Source of the DNA: a virus
Reading direction: 5' to 3' (one strand)
Virus record (IMG/VR): IMGVR_UViG_3300018077_000001
Location: 1 to 56,530 of that record
DNA: 56,530 nt
The notes beneath the pieces were generated by a model. It saw only the letters and a program-made list of their open reading frames with translations, ran no database searches and was not told where the DNA came from. Position 1 is the stretch's first letter. Each line of letters begins with the position of its first letter. This document shows, piece after piece, positions 3,077 to 56,530 of this stretch. Made by a program: the position numbers and the translations under genes.

Positions 3077-3106
3077 AGAATAGCACAAACGGGGTACGAT
3101 TGTCAA
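3077..3106 (-). promoter_or_regulatory. promoter with the ATTACTCA upstream element
   Basis: Minus strand: TTGACA (3106-3101), 18-bp spacer, TATTCT (3082-3077). The -35 box contains the TGA stop of the gene at 3103-3318. It drives only the 70-residue gene downstream. Confidence 0.78.
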
Positions 3107-12235: not shown

Positions 12236-12652
12236 CTACGAATGACGGGCGCTGTCGCCGTATACGCCTTCTTTGATCCCGCGGTAGGCTTTCTGGCTGA
12301 ACAGCCAGTTGATCGCCCACAGCAAGATCTGTTCCATGAACGGCGGGACGCTGGCAAGTCCACCCAGCGCCATCACAGATTGAGCCGTGAAAGCGAACAA
12401 TCCGGTCAGTGCGATCGGGGTGAGCACCTTGATCCAGCGCGGGAACGTCGGCGCGTGCCATCCCGACCAGTTCTCCAGCAGGTACGCGATCACGTAGCCG
12501 GCCAACACGCCCGAGCCACCGCCCGAGATGATCCAGGCCAGCACTTCCTCAAGATCACTGAAGTCACCCTGCGTCGCTGCTATCAACATCACAGTCAGCG
12601 AAGCGATCAGCAACAGCACAAACCTCATCCTGATCATCATTCTATTAAGCAT
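12236..12652 (-). CDS. integral membrane protein, candidate holin
   Basis: 138 residues with hydrophobic segments near 10-27, 36-60, 74-96 and 100-117, so three or four membrane spans, and a polar C-terminus. It is the last gene of the late operon, next to a secreted membrane-anchored protein and downstream of the endolysin-like gene. Holins form membrane lesions that release endolysin; position and topology fit, but the sequence gives no family proof. The start at 12652 follows GGAGATGAG and is 2 bases after the previous stop. Confidence 0.55.
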   Translation of the reverse strand: MLNRMMIRMRFVLLLIASLTVMLIAATQGDFSDLEEVLAWIISGGGSGVLAGYVIAYLLENWSGWHAPTFPRWIKVLTPIALTGLFAFTAQSVMALGGLASVPPFMEQILLWAINWLFSQKAYRGIKEGVYGDSARHS

Positions 12653-12653
12653 C

Positions 12654-13592
12654 TCATCTCCTTCCTGGCGACCGCAACCAAGAGTACACGGTCCACCCGA
12701 TTATCAGTGACATTACACCAAACACCAACGCGATCGAGATTACGGCATCGTTGTCGGTCGCCCTCTCCTCAGGCGTCATGGTCGGAAACGGTGTCCTCGT
12801 CGATCTCGGCGTCGGAGTTGCTACAGCTGTAGCAACTCCGACCGGCTCGGGCCTCGGCTCCTCGATCAGGCCCAACAGATCTTGCTCGATCAGCCGGGGA
12901 ACTGTCGGCTGGTGAAAACTGACCCACTCGCCTCGGATGCGCCATGAGTTGCCGGCTCGATACAGCAAGCGCGGCTCTCGGTATTCCTGCCAATACTCGT
13001 CGCGGGTCACGAACGTCACGCGGTCCAGAAACCACTGCCTCAGCTCGACCGGCTCTCCGGCCACGAATTCGGGCGGCAGCTTCGAAACCTCCACCCCGTC
13101 GATGCGCCACTTCAGAACCTTGTACCGGCTGTTGTACGGCTTGACCATTCCCCAGCGTAGCGCCGTCTCGTAGCCCAGCTCCGCGACTTCTCCCCGATGC
13201 ACGATCGTCCCGTACAGATCGTTCCGCTGAGCACAATCCACGATCAGGAATGGCCCCTCCCACTCACGCTCCGGCCCGCGGATCCAAACGTCAAGTCCAA
13301 TGTCTGCACAGGACAGCCCTGAGACACCATCCACGTATCCGTCAAGCGACAGACCTCTTGCACGGGCCGTACCCTCCATGACACCCGGCCCATAGAAGAC
13401 GACCCCTCCGACGGCATAGGTTGGAGATCCAACGAACCAGCTCTCCAGCGTCGGCCAGCCCGGAACGAAGTCTCCATACCACCAATAGCCGTCCACCACG
13501 TCCGCGTCGTTGCATTCTTCGGACTCGGACTCATCGTGGCAGGCATAGGCGGTGTAATGCCCCGGCAGTTGTGGGAGAAGCGTCAGGATCAA
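12654..13592 (-). CDS. secreted, C-terminally anchored protein with a TP-rich linker
   Basis: 312 residues from the TTG at 13592. The ectodomain (about 15-235) has Cys pairs and motifs VVFYGPGVMEGTARARGL, CADIGLDVWIRGP and FLIVDCAQRNDLYGTIV. These recall a double-psi-barrel-like secreted domain, but I cannot name the family. Residues 250-275 form a Thr/Pro linker (ATPTPRSTRTPFPTMTP) typical of Chloroflexota surface proteins, and 280-305 form a membrane anchor. Upstream in frame lies a signal-peptide-like stretch starting at a CTG (13640). The role may be lysis or surface exclusion. Confidence 0.6.
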   Translation of the reverse strand: MILTLLPQLPGHYTAYACHDESESEECNDADVVDGYWWYGDFVPGWPTLESWFVGSPTYAVGGVVFYGPGVMEGTARARGLSLDGYVDGVSGLSCADIGLDVWIRGPEREWEGPFLIVDCAQRNDLYGTIVHRGEVAELGYETALRWGMVKPYNSRYKVLKWRIDGVEVSKLPPEFVAGEPVELRQWFLDRVTFVTRDEYWQEYREPRLLYRAGNSWRIRGEWVSFHQPTVPRLIEQDLLGLIEEPRPEPVGVATAVATPTPRSTRTPFPTMTPEERATDNDAVISIALVFGVMSLIIGWTVYSWLRSPGRR

Positions 13593-19889: not shown

Positions 19890-20195
19890 CTAAGCCGGAG
19901 CCACCGGCCCGGCCCAAAATTGTTGACTGGCAACCTGAACAGCGTCTTCACCCTCAACATCTGGCGGAAATCCTCGATACCACGATGACGGCGGAACTGC
20001 TCCCTGTCCACTCAGAAACGCATTGACCACGAACAGATAATCCAGAATATTCACCGAATTGTCGGGCACGCACAGCACATCCGCCCTTGACATCGTGACC
20101 GGCACGAGGTTCGACCCCAAGAACACATTGACGACCAGCTGAACGTCCAGAACGTCCACCTTCGTGTCGTCGTTTATGTCGCCGGCCATCGGCAT
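19890..20195 (-). CDS. dockerin-like protein with a C-terminal virion repeat copy
   Basis: 101 residues. The first half is a dockerin-like pair: loop DINDDTKVDVLD (calcium positions D, N, D, D, D) with helix VQLVVNVFLG, then a degenerate second loop DNSVNILD with helix VVNAFLSG. Dockerins bind cohesins on cell surfaces in a calcium-dependent way. The last 30 residues carry one W-x3-FP...QQ-FW unit (SSWYRGFPPD then ASQQFWAGP) matching the repeat fibre at 14077. It lies between the tail-tip gene and the endolysin-like gene, so a virion surface adaptor is inferred. Confidence 0.72.
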   Translation of the reverse strand: MPMAGDINDDTKVDVLDVQLVVNVFLGSNLVPVTMSRADVLCVPDNSVNILDYLFVVNAFLSGQGAVPPSSWYRGFPPDVEGEDAVQVASQQFWAGPVAPA

Positions 20196-38766: not shown

Positions 38767-39519
38767 CTACGTGACCTTTTCGGTCGGGAGACTCCACACT
38801 CGATCGACGCGAACCTTCAGCCTCAGCGTCGTCTTCGTGCGGGTGAAATGCAGATACTTGCCCCACTTCTTCTTCAGATAGTCCAGCTCGAACTCCTCCC
38901 GCTTGCTGGAACGAACCACCGAGTTTCCCCCAATCCTACCCGTCCGATCGTGGACGAACGAGATCCGATTCTCGATCCAGACTACCCGATGCTTCATCAG
39001 CGTTTGCAAACAGTAGTCAATATCGGCCCTGAGCAACAGGTTCGGGTCGTAGCGGACAGTCCTTCCCACGATGCCAATAACCCCGCCCGTCCAGCTCGAC
39101 AGCAGGAACGGACTCTGCGGCCTGAACTTCCGAACGTCCCATGCCTGATTGAACCCGAACACAGCCGTACCCACGTCCGCGGCACATTGGGCGGCAGTTT
39201 CAACCACCAACCGAATGCTGCTGGTCAACGTGATCTTCCGATACATCAGCCCGGGGAGGCTCAACATGGCAGAAACGTCATCATCCACCATGCAGATCCG
39301 CTCGTCCTCGAAGTTGTCAAGAACCCATTGTCTCAGCGGGGCAATTCCCACCACATCGTCCGGATGGGTGATGATCTCAGACCCCGGACAGGCGGCCGCG
39401 TACGCCTTCGCTTCGCTCTCACCCACGCACAGCGTCGCGTCGGGAAAGAGTTTCAACGCCTTCTTCTTCACGAGGGCCTGACGCTCCCTCGAGACGATCA
39501 CTACCCGGACTTGGTTCAT
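38767..39519 (-). CDS. TAGT-like glycosyltransferase (DNA hypermodification candidate)
   Basis: 250 residues. The N-terminus RVVIVSRERQALVKKKALKL is followed by LCVGESEAKAYAAACPG, HPDDVVGIAPLRQWVLDN (about 52-69) and ICMVDDDVSAM (about 75-85). The DDD metal/sugar-nucleotide site and layout fit TET-associated glycosyltransferases, which add sugar to modified bases in phage DNA. The gene overlaps the ParB-domain gene by four bases and sits next to terminase, the usual place. No TET oxygenase or cytosine methyltransferase is evident, so the substrate is uncertain. Confidence 0.65.
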   Translation of the reverse strand: MNQVRVVIVSRERQALVKKKALKLFPDATLCVGESEAKAYAAACPGSEIITHPDDVVGIAPLRQWVLDNFEDERICMVDDDVSAMLSLPGLMYRKITLTSSIRLVVETAAQCAADVGTAVFGFNQAWDVRKFRPQSPFLLSSWTGGVIGIVGRTVRYDPNLLLRADIDYCLQTLMKHRVVWIENRISFVHDRTGRIGGNSVVRSSKREEFELDYLKKKWGKYLHFTRTKTTLRLKVRVDRVWSLPTEKVT

Positions 39520-40166
39520 CTCAACTGAGCGATCACAGTCGGACCATCCAACACGCGGCCCAACCCGATCTTGCGGGTCTTCTTTCCGCCGACCTTGAAC
39601 CCAACCTTGCCCACCTTCAATTTGTCCAACGCTTTCAGGAAGTCGAGCTGGTTGCGGAAGAACAACACGAGGTAATCGTAATACTCGTAGGGCAGCAGCT
39701 CCATCTCAGCGATCTCCGGCTGCCCGGCATCAGCCGCCTCGATCTGTGACACCACTTCGGCCCATTCTGAGCTGGTGAACAGACCGTCCAACAGCTTTTG
39801 CTCCGAGGCCGCCATCTCCCGCAGCACATCAGCGTCCCATTCGGCCAGCTCGCCTGTCCGATTGTTCATGAGGGCCATCCGCTTCTTTTCCTTGGGCGTC
39901 AGACCCGTCCGCCGAACTGCGATCAGCGTCTCCCCATCGGCATCTACGATCCTCACCTTCTTGATGCCGGCGATCTTGGCCCCTTCCCGCACCCCGTTGC
40001 CGGCGATGATCTGATCCTTCTCGTCAATCAGGATACTCCGACCGGTGCCCAACTCACGCAGACTGTCAACGATTAGATTGACGTTCCGGACGCGATGCTT
40101 GCGGGGATTCCTCGGGTCAGGTTTCAACTGCTCAATATCAATCGTCTCGTCTTTGGTGACAGCCAT
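39516..40166 (-). CDS. ParB/Srx-domain protein, DNA-modification type
   Basis: 216 residues. The ParB N-terminal domain (1-95) has DIEQLKPDPRNPRKHRVRNV and IIAGNGVREGAKIAGIKKV; the GNGVREGA stretch replaces the GERR motif of chromosomal ParB. A helical middle follows (LTPKEKKRMALMNNRTGEL), then a small C-terminal domain with LLPYEYYDYLVLFFRN. Such proteins often precede methylases, TAGT genes or terminases in phages; some are nucleases or CTP-binding clamps. First gene of the late operon. Context suggests DNA marking or handling before packaging. Confidence 0.78.
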   Translation of the reverse strand: MAVTKDETIDIEQLKPDPRNPRKHRVRNVNLIVDSLRELGTGRSILIDEKDQIIAGNGVREGAKIAGIKKVRIVDADGETLIAVRRTGLTPKEKKRMALMNNRTGELAEWDADVLREMAASEQKLLDGLFTSSEWAEVVSQIEAADAGQPEIAEMELLPYEYYDYLVLFFRNQLDFLKALDKLKVGKVGFKVGGKKTRKIGLGRVLDGPTVIAQLR

Positions 40167-40262: not shown

Positions 40263-40898
40263 TCAGAACGGAAGCTGGGGCTGTGACTGGTCCTCGTTTT
40301 CTTCGGGTTCGATCCCATTCCCGATCCTGCCCCACGTCGGTTTCTTCATGTGCGGCCACAGGCTGAACGCCGCTTGCCGATACCGCTGCCATTCTTCACC
40401 GATCAGCTCTCCCTCCAACTTCGTGCCCTCCTCGAAGAAATGCCTCCACGACCGCTTCTGCGCTCGACCCTTATTCGTGTGTTTGTCGAGGGCATAGTCG
40501 GGGATGGCCTGCTTCCAGTCGTTCTGCAACCGACGCTGGTTGATCGCACACTGGAACTCGTCGGCCAACCGCGTCTTTGGAGAACGGCACATGAGCAGGA
40601 TCGTGTTCGCCAGAGCCAACCGCGCTCCTCCGTCTTTGCCGTCCTTCCTGAATTCCATGTACACGTCCCTCTGTGTCGGGACGATGTGAAGCACGGACGG
40701 AGCGGCAATTCCAACGTCTTCGTTGGCAATCACGATCAGCCGTTTCCAAAGATATTTCTCGAACTTGGGCACCAGCTCCAGCGCCCAATACATCGCCTCC
40801 TCTTCTAATCCACGCCGGATCGTTTTCTGGAGAGCCGAGATCACTTCCTGAAGCTGATAACCACCCTGAGTTTGAAGCTGAAACTGTTTCGGTGTCAC
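40263..40898 (-). CDS. RarA/MgsA C-terminal-domain-like protein
   Basis: 211 residues (GTG start behind GGAGATGGGGTCGC). VISALQKTIRRGLEEEAMYW then VPKFEKYLWKRLIVIANEDV and GIAAP (about 19-68) match the clamp-binding C-terminal part of RarA/MgsA ATPases. The later AIN, RLAL and PKTRLADEF segments also fit. The AAA+ ATPase part is absent. RarA acts at stalled forks, so the domain alone may bind or mimic a fork factor. It has its own promoter and terminator, hinting at a distinct time or level of expression. Confidence 0.62.
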   Translation of the reverse strand: MTPKQFQLQTQGGYQLQEVISALQKTIRRGLEEEAMYWALELVPKFEKYLWKRLIVIANEDVGIAAPSVLHIVPTQRDVYMEFRKDGKDGGARLALANTILLMCRSPKTRLADEFQCAINQRRLQNDWKQAIPDYALDKHTNKGRAQKRSWRHFFEEGTKLEGELIGEEWQRYRQAAFSLWPHMKKPTWGRIGNGIEPEENEDQSQPQLPF

Positions 40899-40926
40899 GC
40901 GACCCCATCTCCTTTCATCCTGCCTA

Positions 40927-40955
40927 AGTATAGCAGACCCGGGCTGGTTTGTCCA
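40927..40955 (-). promoter_or_regulatory. promoter of the RarA-like gene
   Basis: Minus strand: TGGACA (40955-40950), 17-bp spacer, TATACT (40932-40927). Upstream ATTAGTCA is one mismatch from the family element. The leader AGGATGAAAGGAGAT is conserved. Confidence 0.8.
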
Positions 40956-41037
40956 TGACTAATGACCGGGAGGTGGAAAGGGGGTTGTAGGGGGTTTGTG
41001 AGGTGCCCGGACGGGCCATTGGTAGGGCCTAGAAACA

Positions 41038-41071: not shown

Positions 41072-41398
41072 CTACTGGAGAAGCCGCCTGACTTGATCAA
41101 CACCTTCTATGAACATCCGCACCAGCGGTTCGATCGCGAAGTGATAAAGCAGGTAGCCCCAAAACACGATCATCAACGTCCCAACCCGGCTGTGTCGAAC
41201 CCAATACTGCATCTGGCCCGACAACGTGTGATCGCGAGCGACGATCAGATAGAACTCGGCCACGACCACCACGACCATGACAATCACCCAAGCGACCTGC
41301 GAATGCGGGTCGGTTTTCAGATCTCCTCCTCCGGAGCCAAACACGCTCGCCAAAAGGATTCCCATCATCACCGTCAGAACAACCAGCTCTGCGATCAC
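41072..41398 (-). CDS. membrane protein in the envelope cluster
   Basis: 108 residues with membrane segments near 3-22, 35-54 and 71-88. No family. Its start overlaps the serine protease stop by four bases, so they are translated together. It could anchor or modulate the protease at the host membrane (inference). Confidence 0.65.
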   Translation of the reverse strand: MIAELVVLTVMMGILLASVFGSGGGDLKTDPHSQVAWVIVMVVVVVAEFYLIVARDHTLSGQMQYWVRHSRVGTLMIVFWGYLLYHFAIEPLVRMFIEGVDQVRRLLQ

Positions 41399-42360
41399 AG
41401 CATGATCTCCAGCAGTTCGAGCACCTCGTCGATCGGGTTGTGAATCGTGACCTGATCCGACCCAGCAAACAGCAGGCCAACGGCCTTCGTTTCCTGAGCG
41501 TCCACCAGCAGCGACCCTGAGTCGCCGCCCTTCGACATATTCGAGGTCACGATCTGGCGCTCGAAGGTTGCCACTTTCCCCGCGCCGTAGGACACCTGCA
41601 CCACCGCGTCGAGCAGCTGCACTTCACCGAACGTCAAACCGGTGGTCCGACCGGACTTACGCACCGACATCCCAAGCGTCGCCCGCTTCGTGCTCCTGGG
41701 GCTACCGATCTCGAAGATGTAATCGGCCACGTCGAGCTGAGTCAACGGCTCTGCTACTGCCGCGTCCACCACATTGATTCCACCTTCGGGGCATTCAACC
41801 TTCAGACGGCACGCATCGCCCAACACCGAGGCCAGCGCATTCCCGATGGCGGCGATAATGTTCAGCAATCCCGAACTCCCTGACGCTCCGTTGAACATAA
41901 TCGGCACGAACCTTCGAAGCTCCGCGATCTGGTCATCTTCCCTCCCACCATCGACCGGCCCTGGCTGCAGAATCCGATCATCGGGCCTGCCGGCATTACT
42001 GTTCGCCAGCACGTGATTGTTCGACAAGATCAGCATGTCCTGACTCAGCGTGTCCCGCACGATCACTCCGAGCGTCCCGGCCGTGATCGCATAGTGCCCA
42101 ATGCTAACCCCGCCCGGCGCAGGCCGCCACTTCGCCGTCCGGCCTTGCAACGCCCGGATGATCCCAACCGGAACCACATCGGTCGGAAAGCCATCAAGCT
42201 GCCGCGGTATCAGATCGAGCGTACGGATCTGGACTAGCGGCAGTTTTTCCGTCACCAAAACCACTGTCGCAAGCCTCTCCGTCTTTCGTCCGTTCGTAAC
42301 CTTGAAACCCTGCCCGTACCCAACCACGTTCGGCAACCTCAACAGATCAAACGACTCCAT
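41395..42360 (-). CDS. trypsin-like serine protease
   Basis: 321 residues from the ATG at 42360 (ATG at 42363 or 42372 also possible). Catalytic triad by motif: H116 in LSNNHVLA, D199 in VVDAAVAEP, S281 in SKGGDSGSLLV. The core strands look like the Nal1/trypsin-like peptidases of environmental bacteria. No signal peptide is seen. Proteases of this clan are rare in phage genomes; it may cut a host surface or superinfecting phage protein, or a phage partner from the same cluster. Confidence 0.8.
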   Translation of the reverse strand: MESFDLLRLPNVVGYGQGFKVTNGRKTERLATVVLVTEKLPLVQIRTLDLIPRQLDGFPTDVVPVGIIRALQGRTAKWRPAPGGVSIGHYAITAGTLGVIVRDTLSQDMLILSNNHVLANSNAGRPDDRILQPGPVDGGREDDQIAELRRFVPIMFNGASGSSGLLNIIAAIGNALASVLGDACRLKVECPEGGINVVDAAVAEPLTQLDVADYIFEIGSPRSTKRATLGMSVRKSGRTTGLTFGEVQLLDAVVQVSYGAGKVATFERQIVTSNMSKGGDSGSLLVDAQETKAVGLLFAGSDQVTIHNPIDEVLELLEIML

Positions 42361-42634
42361 CATTGACCTCATTCCCTCGCCTTCCTTTCTCTTCCTTCAT
42401 TCCGATGGTCGGCTTCCAAAGATTAGCATTGCCCCATCCGTGTGCTAGAGCACGTCGAACCCTAGGCTGCAAATCCATCTTCAACACTGGAAACTGCAGT
42501 GTACCTTGACATCCGTTCTCGTCTAATGGGGCAAACAGATAATAGCGTGGGCTGCCAGTTTCAAACACCATGAAGCGGCACCAACGGTCCTGAATAACAG
42601 CAACGAACTGCTTGACCATCAGTGCCTTGTTCAT
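42347..42634 (-). CDS. 95-residue hypothetical protein
   Basis: A single domain of strands and a helix (MVKQFVAVIQDRWCRFMVFE, then GTLQFPVLKMDLQPRVRRAL). It overlaps the protease start by 14 bases. No family. Confidence 0.6.
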   Translation of the reverse strand: MNKALMVKQFVAVIQDRWCRFMVFETGSPRYYLFAPLDENGCQGTLQFPVLKMDLQPRVRRALAHGWGNANLWKPTIGMKEEKGRRGNEVNDGVV

Positions 42635-42825
42635 TCTGTCTCCTCCCCCAAAACAAATTGGGTTCGGGCTAGTCGTTGTCGTACATTATGCGGGAGCGCC
42701 CGATCTGGCTCCCACACCCATAGGCTTACTCGCCCGTCTGACCAACGAACATGCGTCGGGTATTTGTTGAACCGCCGAAGTCTGGCTACATGCTCAACAT
42801 AGGCATCGACTTCTTGCTGACTCAC
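42631..42825 (-). CDS. 64-residue basic protein (GTG start)
   Basis: Starts GTG at 42825 inside the dockerin gene end (GTGA type overlap) and reads MSQQEVDAYVEHVARLRRFN. Trp- and Arg-rich. Unknown. Confidence 0.6.
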   Translation of the reverse strand: MSQQEVDAYVEHVARLRRFNKYPTHVRWSDGRVSLWVWEPDRALPHNVRQRLARTQFVLGEETE

Positions 42826-43058
42826 TCTCCCTCCCCGGCCAAGAACGCGTTGACCACAGCCTGCACATCGAGCACGTTCACCAGACCATCTTGATTCACG
42901 TCCTCGATCTGGAACGGTGCCGCCGCGCCGACGAGCGGGGGCGGCAACACCCCAATTACGATCCCCAACGTCACGGCCTGCATCACAAACAGACAGAGCA
43001 CCAACACCAACATCCACGACACCATCGCCTTCTGTGACCCCATCCCTGTAGCTTTCAT
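42822..43058 (-). CDS. membrane-anchored single dockerin-repeat protein
   Basis: 78 residues. A hydrophobic segment at about 13-36 (MVSWMLVLVLCLFVMQAVTL) is a membrane anchor or uncleaved signal. Residues 53-75 form one ideal dockerin loop DVNQDGLVNVLD with helix VQAVVNAFLAG. A complete dockerin has two loops, so this may pair with another copy. It would display a calcium-binding motif at the cell surface. Compare the virion dockerin-like protein at 19890, which shares VVNAFL. Confidence 0.72.
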   Translation of the reverse strand: MKATGMGSQKAMVSWMLVLVLCLFVMQAVTLGIVIGVLPPPLVGAAAPFQIEDVNQDGLVNVLDVQAVVNAFLAGEGE

Positions 43059-43414
43059 CCTACCCTCCCTTTTCTTTGGTGCGTTCGATCAACGAACGCA
43101 TGATTCCAAGAATTTGGCACGAACCACTCGCGACAACCGCAGGCGCATCGTTTCGGCAGTCGCGACACGTGTAGCACTCCAGATAACCCCTCGACGGCCG
43201 GGATGGAGGCTGAGACGATCACCCTCGTGTTCCCGTTGAACACGGCCCAAAAACGGCGGGCGAATTCGGCACTAACCCCCACCGTCTCTTGCTCCACGCC
43301 GGAAACGTATCCCTCCGAAAACCCCATCATCCGGCTCAACTCGGCCGCGGTCAAATTCAGCGATTTCCGCCTTCCTTTGACGTACTCGGGAGTGGGATAA
43401 AGGAGTTCAGCCAT
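43055..43414 (-). CDS. XRE-type HTH regulator with a Cys-rich C-terminus
   Basis: 119 residues. VKGRRKSLNLTAAELSRMMG and FSEGYVSGVEQETVGVSAEF (about 12-50) form the Cro/CI-like HTH. The C-terminal CACGCREWFVPNSWNHAFVD (about 89-108) has a C-x-C-x-C knot with a His, perhaps zinc-binding. Upstream lies the dyad ACCCTGTAGGGT (43451), a candidate binding site, so it may control its own unit with the dockerin and protease genes downstream. Confidence 0.78.
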   Translation of the reverse strand: MAELLYPTPEYVKGRRKSLNLTAAELSRMMGFSEGYVSGVEQETVGVSAEFARRFWAVFNGNTRVIVSASIPAVEGLSGVLHVSRLPKRCACGCREWFVPNSWNHAFVDRTHQRKGRVG

Positions 43415-43450
43415 TGGCTTTCCTGGGGTTCATTTTAGAGCCTTTTCGAT

Positions 43451-43462
43451 ACCCTGTAGGGT
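43451..43462. promoter_or_regulatory. candidate operator for the HTH regulator
   Basis: A perfect dyad ACCCT-GT-AGGGT in the 52-base gap before the regulator gene. A TAAAAT-like box lies about 20 bp downstream on the minus strand, but no clear -35. Confidence 0.45.
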
Positions 43463-43466
43463 TGAG

Positions 43467-43670
43467 TTAGGATGCCGAATCCGCTCCTTCGGAATTGCTG
43501 TCCGGTTCAACTGGCCGAATCGCCGCGAACGTGTCCACCACATAGTTCGAAAAGTGCATCAGCCGGAAGTCTCGTTTCCCTCGCACCCGGCCAACATACA
43601 AGACCCATTCTCTGATCTTGTACAACTTCCACATCGAGCCGGCCGTGAACTGCCGGGCATACTCTTTCAT
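43467..43670 (-). CDS. 67-residue hypothetical protein
   Basis: Starts MKEYARQFTAGSMWKLYKIR, with basic strands and an acidic Ser-rich tail. It overlaps the deacetylase stop by four bases. No family. Confidence 0.6.
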   Translation of the reverse strand: MKEYARQFTAGSMWKLYKIREWVLYVGRVRGKRDFRLMHFSNYVVDTFAAIRPVEPDSNSEGADSAS

Positions 43671-44431
43671 ATCGGCTGCACTCCAATCCTCGGCCGCCGC
43701 TTCCGCTCCTCTTCGAGCCTGATCTGCTGCGCTCTCAGGCTGTGCCAGAGATCCGTCACCATCAATGACGACGACCGGCGCAGGTACAACAGGTGGTTGA
43801 TCAACTCATGGTCCGCCAGCCGTGCATGCGTCAACACGATCTGGTCGGACTGAATCGGCCGGCCCCAACGCCACTCGGTCAGATCGTTTGACCAACCGAT
43901 CGGCCGCAGCCCGTTGTCTTTCGCCATCTCCATAAACGCGTCGGTGAACAGACCCCACGGTGCTCGGGCGTACATGCCGAGCCACGGAACCTCGGCCTCC
44001 GGCGCGGGTTTGCCTTCCCAGCCCCATATCCGCACAAACGTCTCGATCCACTCGTCGTAGTCAGCCTGCCACTGCGCCCGCTTCCACTTCACCACTGTCT
44101 CGATCACTTCGTGCCGCATCGAGTGATAGGCAATCTCATGATTCCCGAACCACATCAGGTAGCGCAGCTCCTCGGCCCGATCCCACTCACTGAAATTGCG
44201 AAGCATCGGCTGCCCGATCAGGAACCACGTCGCGTACACCCACGACTGACGCAGGTTTTCCAGCATGATCCGCATGACCATCGGCTCCCAGCCGTCGTCA
44301 ATCGTCAGCGTCACGATCTCGCCGCCCGGGATCTCCGTCAGCACCCCATCAGGAAACGTCATGCCCCGCTGCTGGACGATCGGGCTGGCGGCAACCGCGC
44401 CGCTCAGCTTCAAGAAGTCACGCCGATTCAT
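43667..44431 (-). CDS. Tat-exported polysaccharide deacetylase (NodB-like)
   Basis: 254 residues from the ATG at 44431 (GGAGA site). Twin-arginine signal RRDFLK at residues 3-8 followed by a hydrophobic stretch (LSGAVAASP). NodB motif 1 TLTIDDGW (about 42-48, metal D46) and motif 2 HSMRH (H103, H107). The family removes acetyl groups from chitin, peptidoglycan or other polysaccharides. A phage copy exported by the host Tat system would alter the host cell wall or surface glycan, for example against lysozyme or other phages (inference). The C-terminal part (DLTEWRWGRPI) keeps the barrel pattern. Confidence 0.85.
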   Translation of the reverse strand: MNRRDFLKLSGAVAASPIVQQRGMTFPDGVLTEIPGGEIVTLTIDDGWEPMVMRIMLENLRQSWVYATWFLIGQPMLRNFSEWDRAEELRYLMWFGNHEIAYHSMRHEVIETVVKWKRAQWQADYDEWIETFVRIWGWEGKPAPEAEVPWLGMYARAPWGLFTDAFMEMAKDNGLRPIGWSNDLTEWRWGRPIQSDQIVLTHARLADHELINHLLYLRRSSSLMVTDLWHSLRAQQIRLEEERKRRPRIGVQPI

Positions 44432-44777
44432 CTTCAATCTCCGCCGGCTTTCCGATCAGCACCCGCTTCACTGCATCTCGATAGTCGCGCGGGCCATCAA
44501 ACTTGCTGTAATCCAACGCTAACGCTGCTTCCATCCGTTCCCTCAGCTGCCGATTCTGAATCCGCATCATCCTCACGCGGGCCAGATACTCCCGCCCCGG
44601 CTCCGTCGTATCCAGCGCCTTGTCCGCGCACTGCTCAAACCAAGTGGCCGTGTCCAGCAACTTTTCCTCGAGCGCATCCGCGCGATCACCCAGCGTAAGA
44701 AAAACGCCGCTCAACCCCGGACACGCTGCCGACAACGCCCTGATTGCGTCACCCAACCTCACTCGTAGCTCAGCCAT
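44418..44777 (-). CDS. helical hypothetical protein
   Basis: 119 residues, nearly all helical. It starts MAELRVRLGDAIRALSAACP and includes ARVRMMRIQNRQLRERMEAA. Overlaps the deacetylase start. Unknown role in the envelope cluster. Confidence 0.62.
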   Translation of the reverse strand: MAELRVRLGDAIRALSAACPGLSGVFLTLGDRADALEEKLLDTATWFEQCADKALDTTEPGREYLARVRMMRIQNRQLRERMEAALALDYSKFDGPRDYRDAVKRVLIGKPAEIEDESA

Positions 44778-44813
44778 CGGTTTCCTCCTCCGTCTGAATT
44801 ACCCACAGTCCAC

Positions 44814-45281
44814 TTAACTTTGCCGCGTCCAGACCCCGCAGCCGAAACTCTCGAAGACCCGATCTCCACCTATGATCTCGACTAGGTTGTGAAACGAGCC
44901 GTAGTCATAGAGCCGCGTGCTGCCGCCGCCGTAGCCGGTCGAGAGGCGTGTGCCGACCTTCCAACCACACTCAAAGTCCAAACTCCCATCTGCCTGTGTA
45001 ATGACAACCCCGCCCGTATTGACGTAGAGGCCACGCGCGATCTGCACACCGACGAGCCAAACACCATCGGTGAACTGAACCCCCAGCCCATCCTCGTCCG
45101 CAGCAAGAATCTGCTGGTCAACGATCGGCGTCGCCGGAACGACCCGCGTGACTTCATAGGGAACCTCCACGATCACGTCGTGAGGAACCTCGACCTCCCG
45201 AGTTACTTCCACTTCCACTGCTTGCGGTTCCGCACAACTTACCAACAACAGTCCAATCAACAGCACCAATCCGTGTTTCAT
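44814..45281 (-). CDS. surface lipoprotein with VEVTREVEV repeat
   Basis: 155 residues. Signal peptide with lipobox LVSC, so the mature N-terminus is lipidated C16. Residues 22-48 alternate Val with Glu/Arg/Pro (VEVEVTREVEVPHDVIVEVP), a pattern common in Chloroflexota surface lipoproteins. The C-terminal domain (about 65-155) is beta-rich with two Cys. Phage lipoproteins often block superinfection; that is a hypothesis here. First of the envelope cluster. Confidence 0.78.
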   Translation of the reverse strand: MKHGLVLLIGLLLVSCAEPQAVEVEVTREVEVPHDVIVEVPYEVTRVVPATPIVDQQILAADEDGLGVQFTDGVWLVGVQIARGLYVNTGGVVITQADGSLDFECGWKVGTRLSTGYGGGSTRLYDYGSFHNLVEIIGGDRVFESFGCGVWTRQS

Positions 45282-51112: not shown

Positions 51113-51388
51113 TCACGCCTCCTGCTCGACAACGGCTACCAAGAAACTGTCTTGCGGCCATGCTCGGTAATGATCCGCCGTTTCCCGCAACGTCGCCCTA
51201 ACCCCCGCGTGCAGCAACGCCTCAACCACCTTGTCCCCCCAACTCTGAGCCGTGGCCCCGAACCGGTAAAAGTAGCCCCGCTTGACGCTCACCATTCCGT
51301 CCTTGTGGCAAACCACCTGATCAGGGATCGCCTCCGTCGTGCTGTCCAACGCTTTCTTCACTGCCTTCTGGAACGCTGTGTGGGCCAT
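51113..51388 (-). CDS. 91-residue hypothetical protein, first gene of its unit
   Basis: The promoter at 51444 and AAAGGAGAT site put the start at 51388 (MAHTAFQKAVKKALDSTTEA), although the frame is open upstream. Possible strands after residue 30. Unknown family. Confidence 0.72.
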   Translation of the reverse strand: MAHTAFQKAVKKALDSTTEAIPDQVVCHKDGMVSVKRGYFYRFGATAQSWGDKVVEALLHAGVRATLRETADHYRAWPQDSFLVAVVEQEA

Positions 51389-51415
51389 CTTCCCATCTCC
51401 TTTCATCCTGCCATA

Positions 51416-51444
51416 AGCATAGCAGGTTGGCGGGGGTTTGTCAA
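51416..51444 (-). promoter_or_regulatory. sigma70-type promoter of the conserved phage family
   Basis: Minus strand: TTGACA (51444-51439), 17-bp spacer, TATGCT (51421-51416), with ATTACTCA upstream and an AGGATGAAAGGAGAT leader. It drives the long unit that ends at 41072. Confidence 0.87.
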
Positions 51445-51517
51445 TGAGTAATGGGGGGTTAGGAAAGGTGCCCCCATATAAGGAGCGTGGCGGACCTTTA
51501 TTGGCCTTTTGGGGCGT

Positions 51518-54441: not shown

Positions 54442-54470
54442 ATTGGAATTCAGACGAACCGATTTGTCAA
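54442..54470 (-). promoter_or_regulatory. promoter with the family -35 region
   Basis: Minus strand TACTCATTGACA (-35 at 54470-54465), but at 17 bp only TCCAAT (54447-54442) appears. The leader GGGATGAAAGGAGAT is conserved. A weaker or activated promoter for the ParB/Toprim unit. Confidence 0.6.
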
Positions 54471-56354: not shown

Positions 56355-56530
56355 TGTCCGAACCCCAATCCTTTCGACTTCAAACTCACGTACCTGCCCC
56401 CTCCGATAATCAAGTGATCGAGCACCTCAATATCCAACAAGCGCCCGGCCTCGACCATTGCACGAGTCACAGCTACATCCTCCGGGCTGGGCGACGGATC
56501 TCCGCTCGGATGGTTGTGCATCACGATCAC
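56351..56530 (-). CDS. radC: RadC family protein, 3' part (joins 612..1)
   Basis: Contains the C-terminus [18 protein letters not shown] and the stop at 56353-56351, which overlaps the DUF2958 ATG. Bases 56408-56530 repeat 1-123, so only 56351-56407 is new coding sequence. Confidence 0.93.
56408..56530. repeat. terminal direct repeat, right copy
   Basis: Identical to 1-123. Marks contig closure inside radC. Confidence 0.95.

Follow-up and report, generated by a model that had tools for sequence, protein, structure and literature searches.

Putative accessory genes, several with predicted envelope-directed products, in an uncultivated siphovirus-like genome

A ten-gene set on the minus strand

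The window, that is, the whole stretch of DNA analysed here (56,530 bases), is the virus contig of IMG/VR record IMGVR_UViG_3300018077_000001. At 41072-45281 it carries ten co-oriented open reading frames on the minus strand, with junctions that are either overlaps of 4-26 bp or gaps of 36-52 bp. These are real reading frames, and the ten adjacent co-oriented genes of the first-pass annotation are found where it placed them. In the direction of reading, with the promoter-like elements on either side, the features are as follows.

51375-51464 (minus strand): promoter-like element, upstream copy, recognised from the consensus only; likely start of the unit
44814-45281 (minus strand): lipoprotein, 155 aa; lipobox, then a V/E/T-rich linker and an Rv1352/Rv1906c domain
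44418-44777 (minus strand): 119-aa protein; no family match below E 0.01
43667-44431 (minus strand): Tat-signal NodB/CE4-type polysaccharide deacetylase (predicted), 254 aa; PF01522 and PF10518 over cut-off
43467-43670 (minus strand): 67-aa protein; no family match
43055-43414 (minus strand): XRE-like helix-turn-helix protein, 119 aa; HTH_31/HTH_3 below cut-off, PHROG 1373 at 1.7e-5
42822-43058 (minus strand): 78-aa protein with one membrane span (hydropathy 2.81) and a single (half) dockerin repeat, PF00404
42631-42825 (minus strand): 64-aa protein, GTG start; no family match
42347-42634 (minus strand): 95-aa protein; no family match
41395-42372 (minus strand): NAL1-like trypsin-fold serine protease (predicted), 325 aa; PHROG 20754 and NAL1 profile match, no export signal
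41072-41398 (minus strand): three-span membrane protein (from hydropathy), 108 aa, GTG start; no family match over cut-off
40886-40975 (minus strand): promoter-like element, downstream copy, recognised from the consensus only; precedes the gene at 40263-40898 and marks the end of the unit

The promoter-like element has the form CATTACTCATTGACAAACC-N-TGCTATxCT-N-AGGATGAAAGGAGATGG, with near-identical minus-strand copies at 51444, 40955, 12014 and 2697 and looser ones, also on the minus strand, at 54470, 3106 and 9930. We infer from the consensus that these repeated elements are promoters, and since the stretch holding the ten genes runs between the copies at 51444 and 40955, the set is probably the promoter-distal part of one transcription unit. 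The element resembles a strong sigma70 promoter, most copies have a ribosome-binding-like AAAGGAGAT downstream, and the copies apparently partition the genome into transcription units; the copy at 3106 lies very near an ATG, so that its message may be leaderless. A scan for the element elsewhere gave a match in one AT-rich contig, which we attribute to chance because the fetched stretch has no protein in common with the phage. The possible operator at 43451 suggested by the first-pass annotation has no second copy, and at least as many matches arose in 53 of 100 shuffles, which is chance level.

The genome

Positions 1-123 are identical to 56408-56530, giving the record an exact 123-bp end repeat, and a RadC-like frame remains open over the joined ends; we therefore take the genome to be complete, at about 56.4 kb. 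Completeness is not evident from the IMG/VR handling of the record. The portal (PHROG 146, 1.7e-61), terminase, head maturation protease, tail chaperone and tail terminator recognised in the genome point to a siphovirus. No portal relative exceeds about 50% identity, and a megablast search with 12 kb of the genome against 50,697 phage records gave no match. The tRNA and Rfam scans were both empty, PADLOC reported no known defence protein and only weak HTH matches, and lysis genes were not identifiable in the genome by Pfam or PHROGs. The host may be a member of the Chloroflexota, a guess from the V/E/T-rich linker of the lipoprotein and the dockerins. Neither a tyrosine integrase (PF00589) nor a large serine recombinase (PF07508) was found in the complete genome by searches that were positive on control genomes; with no integrase found, lysogenic conversion, one of the purposes proposed earlier for the set, is without support, though a phage may reach lysogeny by other means.

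Predicted envelope-directed products

The deacetylase exceeds the curated cut-offs of both Polysacc_deac_1 (PF01522; 36.7 bits, cut-off 23.1, 4.8e-9) and TAT_signal (PF10518; 24.3 bits, cut-off 22.7, 2.8e-5), and falls slightly under the cut-off of NCBIfam TIGR01409. All five NodB motifs can be read directly in its sequence (T43IDD46, H103xxxH107, R156APWG160, D183LTEW187 and L200TH202), and solved relatives match at about 1e-5. An AlphaFold model made without an alignment (pLDDT 37) was too poor for a fold search. We assign the protein to the NodB/CE4 family, with the corresponding activity as a prediction, which bears out the earlier description of a Tat deacetylase with a catalytic site. 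Phage-encoded NodB homology domains also occur in Arthrobacter phage Gorpy gp36 ('glucosaminyl deacetylase') and Bacillus phage G gp673, but tblastn detects no direct similarity between these and the present protein, which differs from both in being a short protein with a Tat signal. Gorpy gp36 adjoins integrase genes.

The lipoprotein annotation likewise holds: the product carries the lipobox MKHGLVLLIGLLLVSC, in which LVSC is residues 13-16 by reading, and exceeds the cut-off of NCBIfam NF053833 (33 bits, cut-off 25; 2.3e-9 in a second search). Superinfection exclusion is a known function of Ltp-type phage lipoproteins (PMC3952083). The present protein shares with the Ltp of Streptococcus thermophilus phage TP-J34 its small size, phage origin and lipobox, but its domain is of the Rv1352/Rv1906c kind; no Pfam match to an Ltp domain appeared up to E 1, and NCBIfam points to a different domain. 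The ltp gene of TP-J34 sits in a lysogeny module, whereas no integrase was found in the present phage genome.

The lipoprotein and the deacetylase have no viral relatives within the collections searched, and their Pfam and NCBIfam families are cellular. Both observations would fit a recent acquisition of host genes that serve little or no selected function in the phage, the protease perhaps excepted. We consider this unlikely, if the best of the alternatives to the reading given below, in view of the opposing evidence that all frames are intact, the catalytic motifs complete and the genes tightly packed.

The earlier 'dockerin anchor' at 42822-43058 stands in part. A membrane span and one calcium-loop repeat are present, the latter covering positions 2-23 or 2-27 of the 57 in the PF00404 profile, but it is one of two repeats and not a full dockerin. 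As in type I dockerins, there is one canonical calcium loop with its helix (D1, N3, D5, N9, D12); unlike them, the protein has only one of the two repeats and holds it behind a transmembrane segment. A search with a degenerate dockerin pattern gave no match. A second dockerin-like protein, with two repeats and no signal peptide, is encoded among the tail genes (19890-20195, minus strand) and is a candidate virion dockerin. One could imagine dockerin-cohesin recognition in which this protein would be carried by the virion and bind cohesins on the host surface, and the membrane-anchored half-dockerin, expressed from a separate unit, would mask them from the cell's side, shutting out further phages of this type; we rate this as highly improbable.

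With the three-span protein, four of the five membrane or exported products originally counted remain (lipoprotein, deacetylase, half-dockerin and three-span protein), these classes being a reading of a simple hydropathy scan; the fifth, the protease, does not. Four of ten envelope-directed products in the set against about 5 of 75 elsewhere in the phage is a modest enrichment (Fisher p about 0.01, post hoc and with 75 as an approximate gene count).

A NAL1-like protease without an export signal

The protease matches PHROG 20754 (1.3e-71). A profile built from five members matches the structures of rice NARROW LEAF 1 with its N-terminal part (1.9e-8, positions 20-130) and streptogrisin B with its C-terminal part (1.1e-8); the single sequence is sub-threshold for Pfam NAL1_N and Trypsin_2, and an AlphaFold model made with four sequences (pLDDT 41) was too poor for a fold search. 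The trypsin-like triad noted earlier is present, as H120/D203/S285 in all 12 sequences compared; the original numbering, H116/D199/S281, counts the same residues from the fifth codon. These matches place the protein in a widespread family of NAL1-like proteases with a predicted trypsin fold, which includes rice NARROW LEAF 1, Aeropyrum coil-shaped virus ORF 25-326 and PHROG 20754. It has in common with them the triad, the N-terminal NAL1-type region and the lack of an export signal, but shares only 33-46% identity with the viral and plasmid members and has a different gene neighbourhood. A family mainly known from rice leaf development thus occurs in viruses of bacteria and archaea.

The first-pass annotation had counted the protease among the exported products. 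An N-terminal hydrophobic segment is absent from it and from 11 relatives, the highest 15-residue N-terminal hydropathy being 0.57; because none of the 12 members examined has a signal-peptide-like N-terminus, the protease is predicted to be cytoplasmic and to lie outside any exported set. A role in head maturation is less likely for this trypsin-like gene, as the phage encodes another head maturation protease.

Besides the Aeropyrum virus, relatives were found in a 484-kb uncultured phage, in four virus contigs (L005, L006, L008 and L009), in a Patescibacteria-assigned contig, and on plasmids of Rubrobacter, Rhizobium, Clostridiaceae, Paenibacillus and others. On a Tsukamurella plasmid (L102:4893-6791) the NAL1-like protease is fused to an Endonuclease_NS (DNA/RNA non-specific endonuclease) domain, an annotation that recurs on Rhizobium and Streptomyces plasmids. 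The archaeal-virus-like protease has 1116 aa in L008 (6634-9984) and 352 aa in L009 (7941-8999); the extra part enters near 'ITAGC', and its size fits an intein plus more.

Linkage of the set in relatives

No conserved gene order was found among the relatives examined. By tblastn of the phage proteins against all fetched viral loci, 0 of the 10 proteins of the set match any portal-related locus, and the protease matches only those loci that were fetched for it. The deacetylase family, the protease profile and the Rv1352 domain were found in 0 of 44 longer portal-related virus records, a sample that contains many fragments and no close sister phage, and in which the protease-profile scan had no positive control. 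The deacetylase is absent from all six other records that carry the protease, and scans of the viral_contigs collection with single proteins (protease, deacetylase, portal and lipoprotein) gave no match. A dockerin below the cut-off occurs in one portal relative, on an M6-like metalloprotease. This protein (L108:1438-3006, in the record of the portal-related phage L069) has a HEIGH motif, and its gene adjoins a ParB-methyltransferase gene.

The set is therefore unlinked in every relative found, as a weakly tested absence, because no close sister phage was found and many of the records are fragments. The first-pass annotation had named genes scattered singly as evidence against its proposal, and for the protease gene this is what we see: it occurs alone in unrelated viruses and on plasmids.

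Interpretation of the set

Phages often carry small, non-essential gene sets that alter the host during infection, and to these the present phage adds a Tat-signal sugar deacetylase and an Rv1352-domain lipoprotein that have no phage relative in the collections searched. Sequence comparison establishes the families and signals, the operon-like spacing of the genes, and the fact that no relative found has them linked. The reading we tentatively favour, at somewhat less than even confidence, is that the segment forms the far end of a single transcription unit of the phage and holds independently acquired accessory ('moron-like') genes, not one dedicated machine. As these are proteins of familiar kinds, and none of the relatives has the set together, it would be ordinary accessory cargo and not a new system. 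The signals and domains that exceed curated cut-offs, a unit bounded by the elements at 51444 and 40955, the absence of linkage in the relatives, the recurrence of the protease alone and with no export signal, a complete genome in which no integrase was found, and the precedents for NodB-type deacetylases in phages all argue for this; the excess of envelope-directed products in the set, which a common purpose would explain, argues against it.

It is plausible that some of these accessory genes modify the surface of the infected host cell. Export of the deacetylase would go through the Tat pathway of the host, and the enzyme might then strip N-acetyl groups from a glycan of the host wall or surface. 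The lipoprotein and the half-dockerin would lie on the outer side of the cytoplasmic membrane, where they may interfere with a second phage or with a surface partner of the host. The NAL1-like protease would act in the cytoplasm on some host or phage protein, and the three-span protein may be a membrane partner or unrelated. Should one of the surface proteins turn out to exclude other phages, it would count as a new exclusion factor.

The first-pass annotation had instead proposed one envelope-remodelling or superinfection-exclusion system under the HTH gene. In such a system the deacetylase would alter a receptor glycan and the protease would trim surface proteins, with the lipoprotein and the dockerin protein standing in the way of adsorption or injection and the membrane protein preventing DNA entry. 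Tight gene packing, four envelope-directed products and the exclusion function of Ltp-type lipoproteins (PMC3952083) are consistent with this, but the protease is predicted to be cytoplasmic, no linked relatives were found, the operator is at chance level and the lipoprotein has no Ltp domain match. We consider a dedicated system improbable.

Slightly less probable still is that part of the set aids lysis or egress, the three-span protein acting like a holin that lets the cytoplasmic protease reach envelope proteins while the deacetylase alters the wall. The three-span protein could be holin-like: its gene overlaps the protease gene by 4 bp, a small hydrophobic gene lies ahead of the protease gene in L005, and the protease comes after tail-like genes in both L005 and L006. 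Against this, the set and the late genes belong to different units, and two other small membrane genes, at 12236 and 18711, could encode a holin just as well.

Genes outside the set

The gene that follows the downstream promoter-like element (40263-40898, minus strand) encodes a stand-alone MgsA C-terminal domain protein (PF12002, 1.9e-9) without the AAA+ part. Beyond it, at 38767-40166 (minus strand), a TET-associated glycosyltransferase-like gene adjoins a ParB-like gene; genes of this glycosyltransferase-like type accompany DNA hypermodification in other phages. A further membrane- or surface-like pair at 12236-13592 (minus strand) consists of a three-span protein and a 312-aa protein, neither with a family match, the latter with a T/P-rich linker and a C-terminal span.
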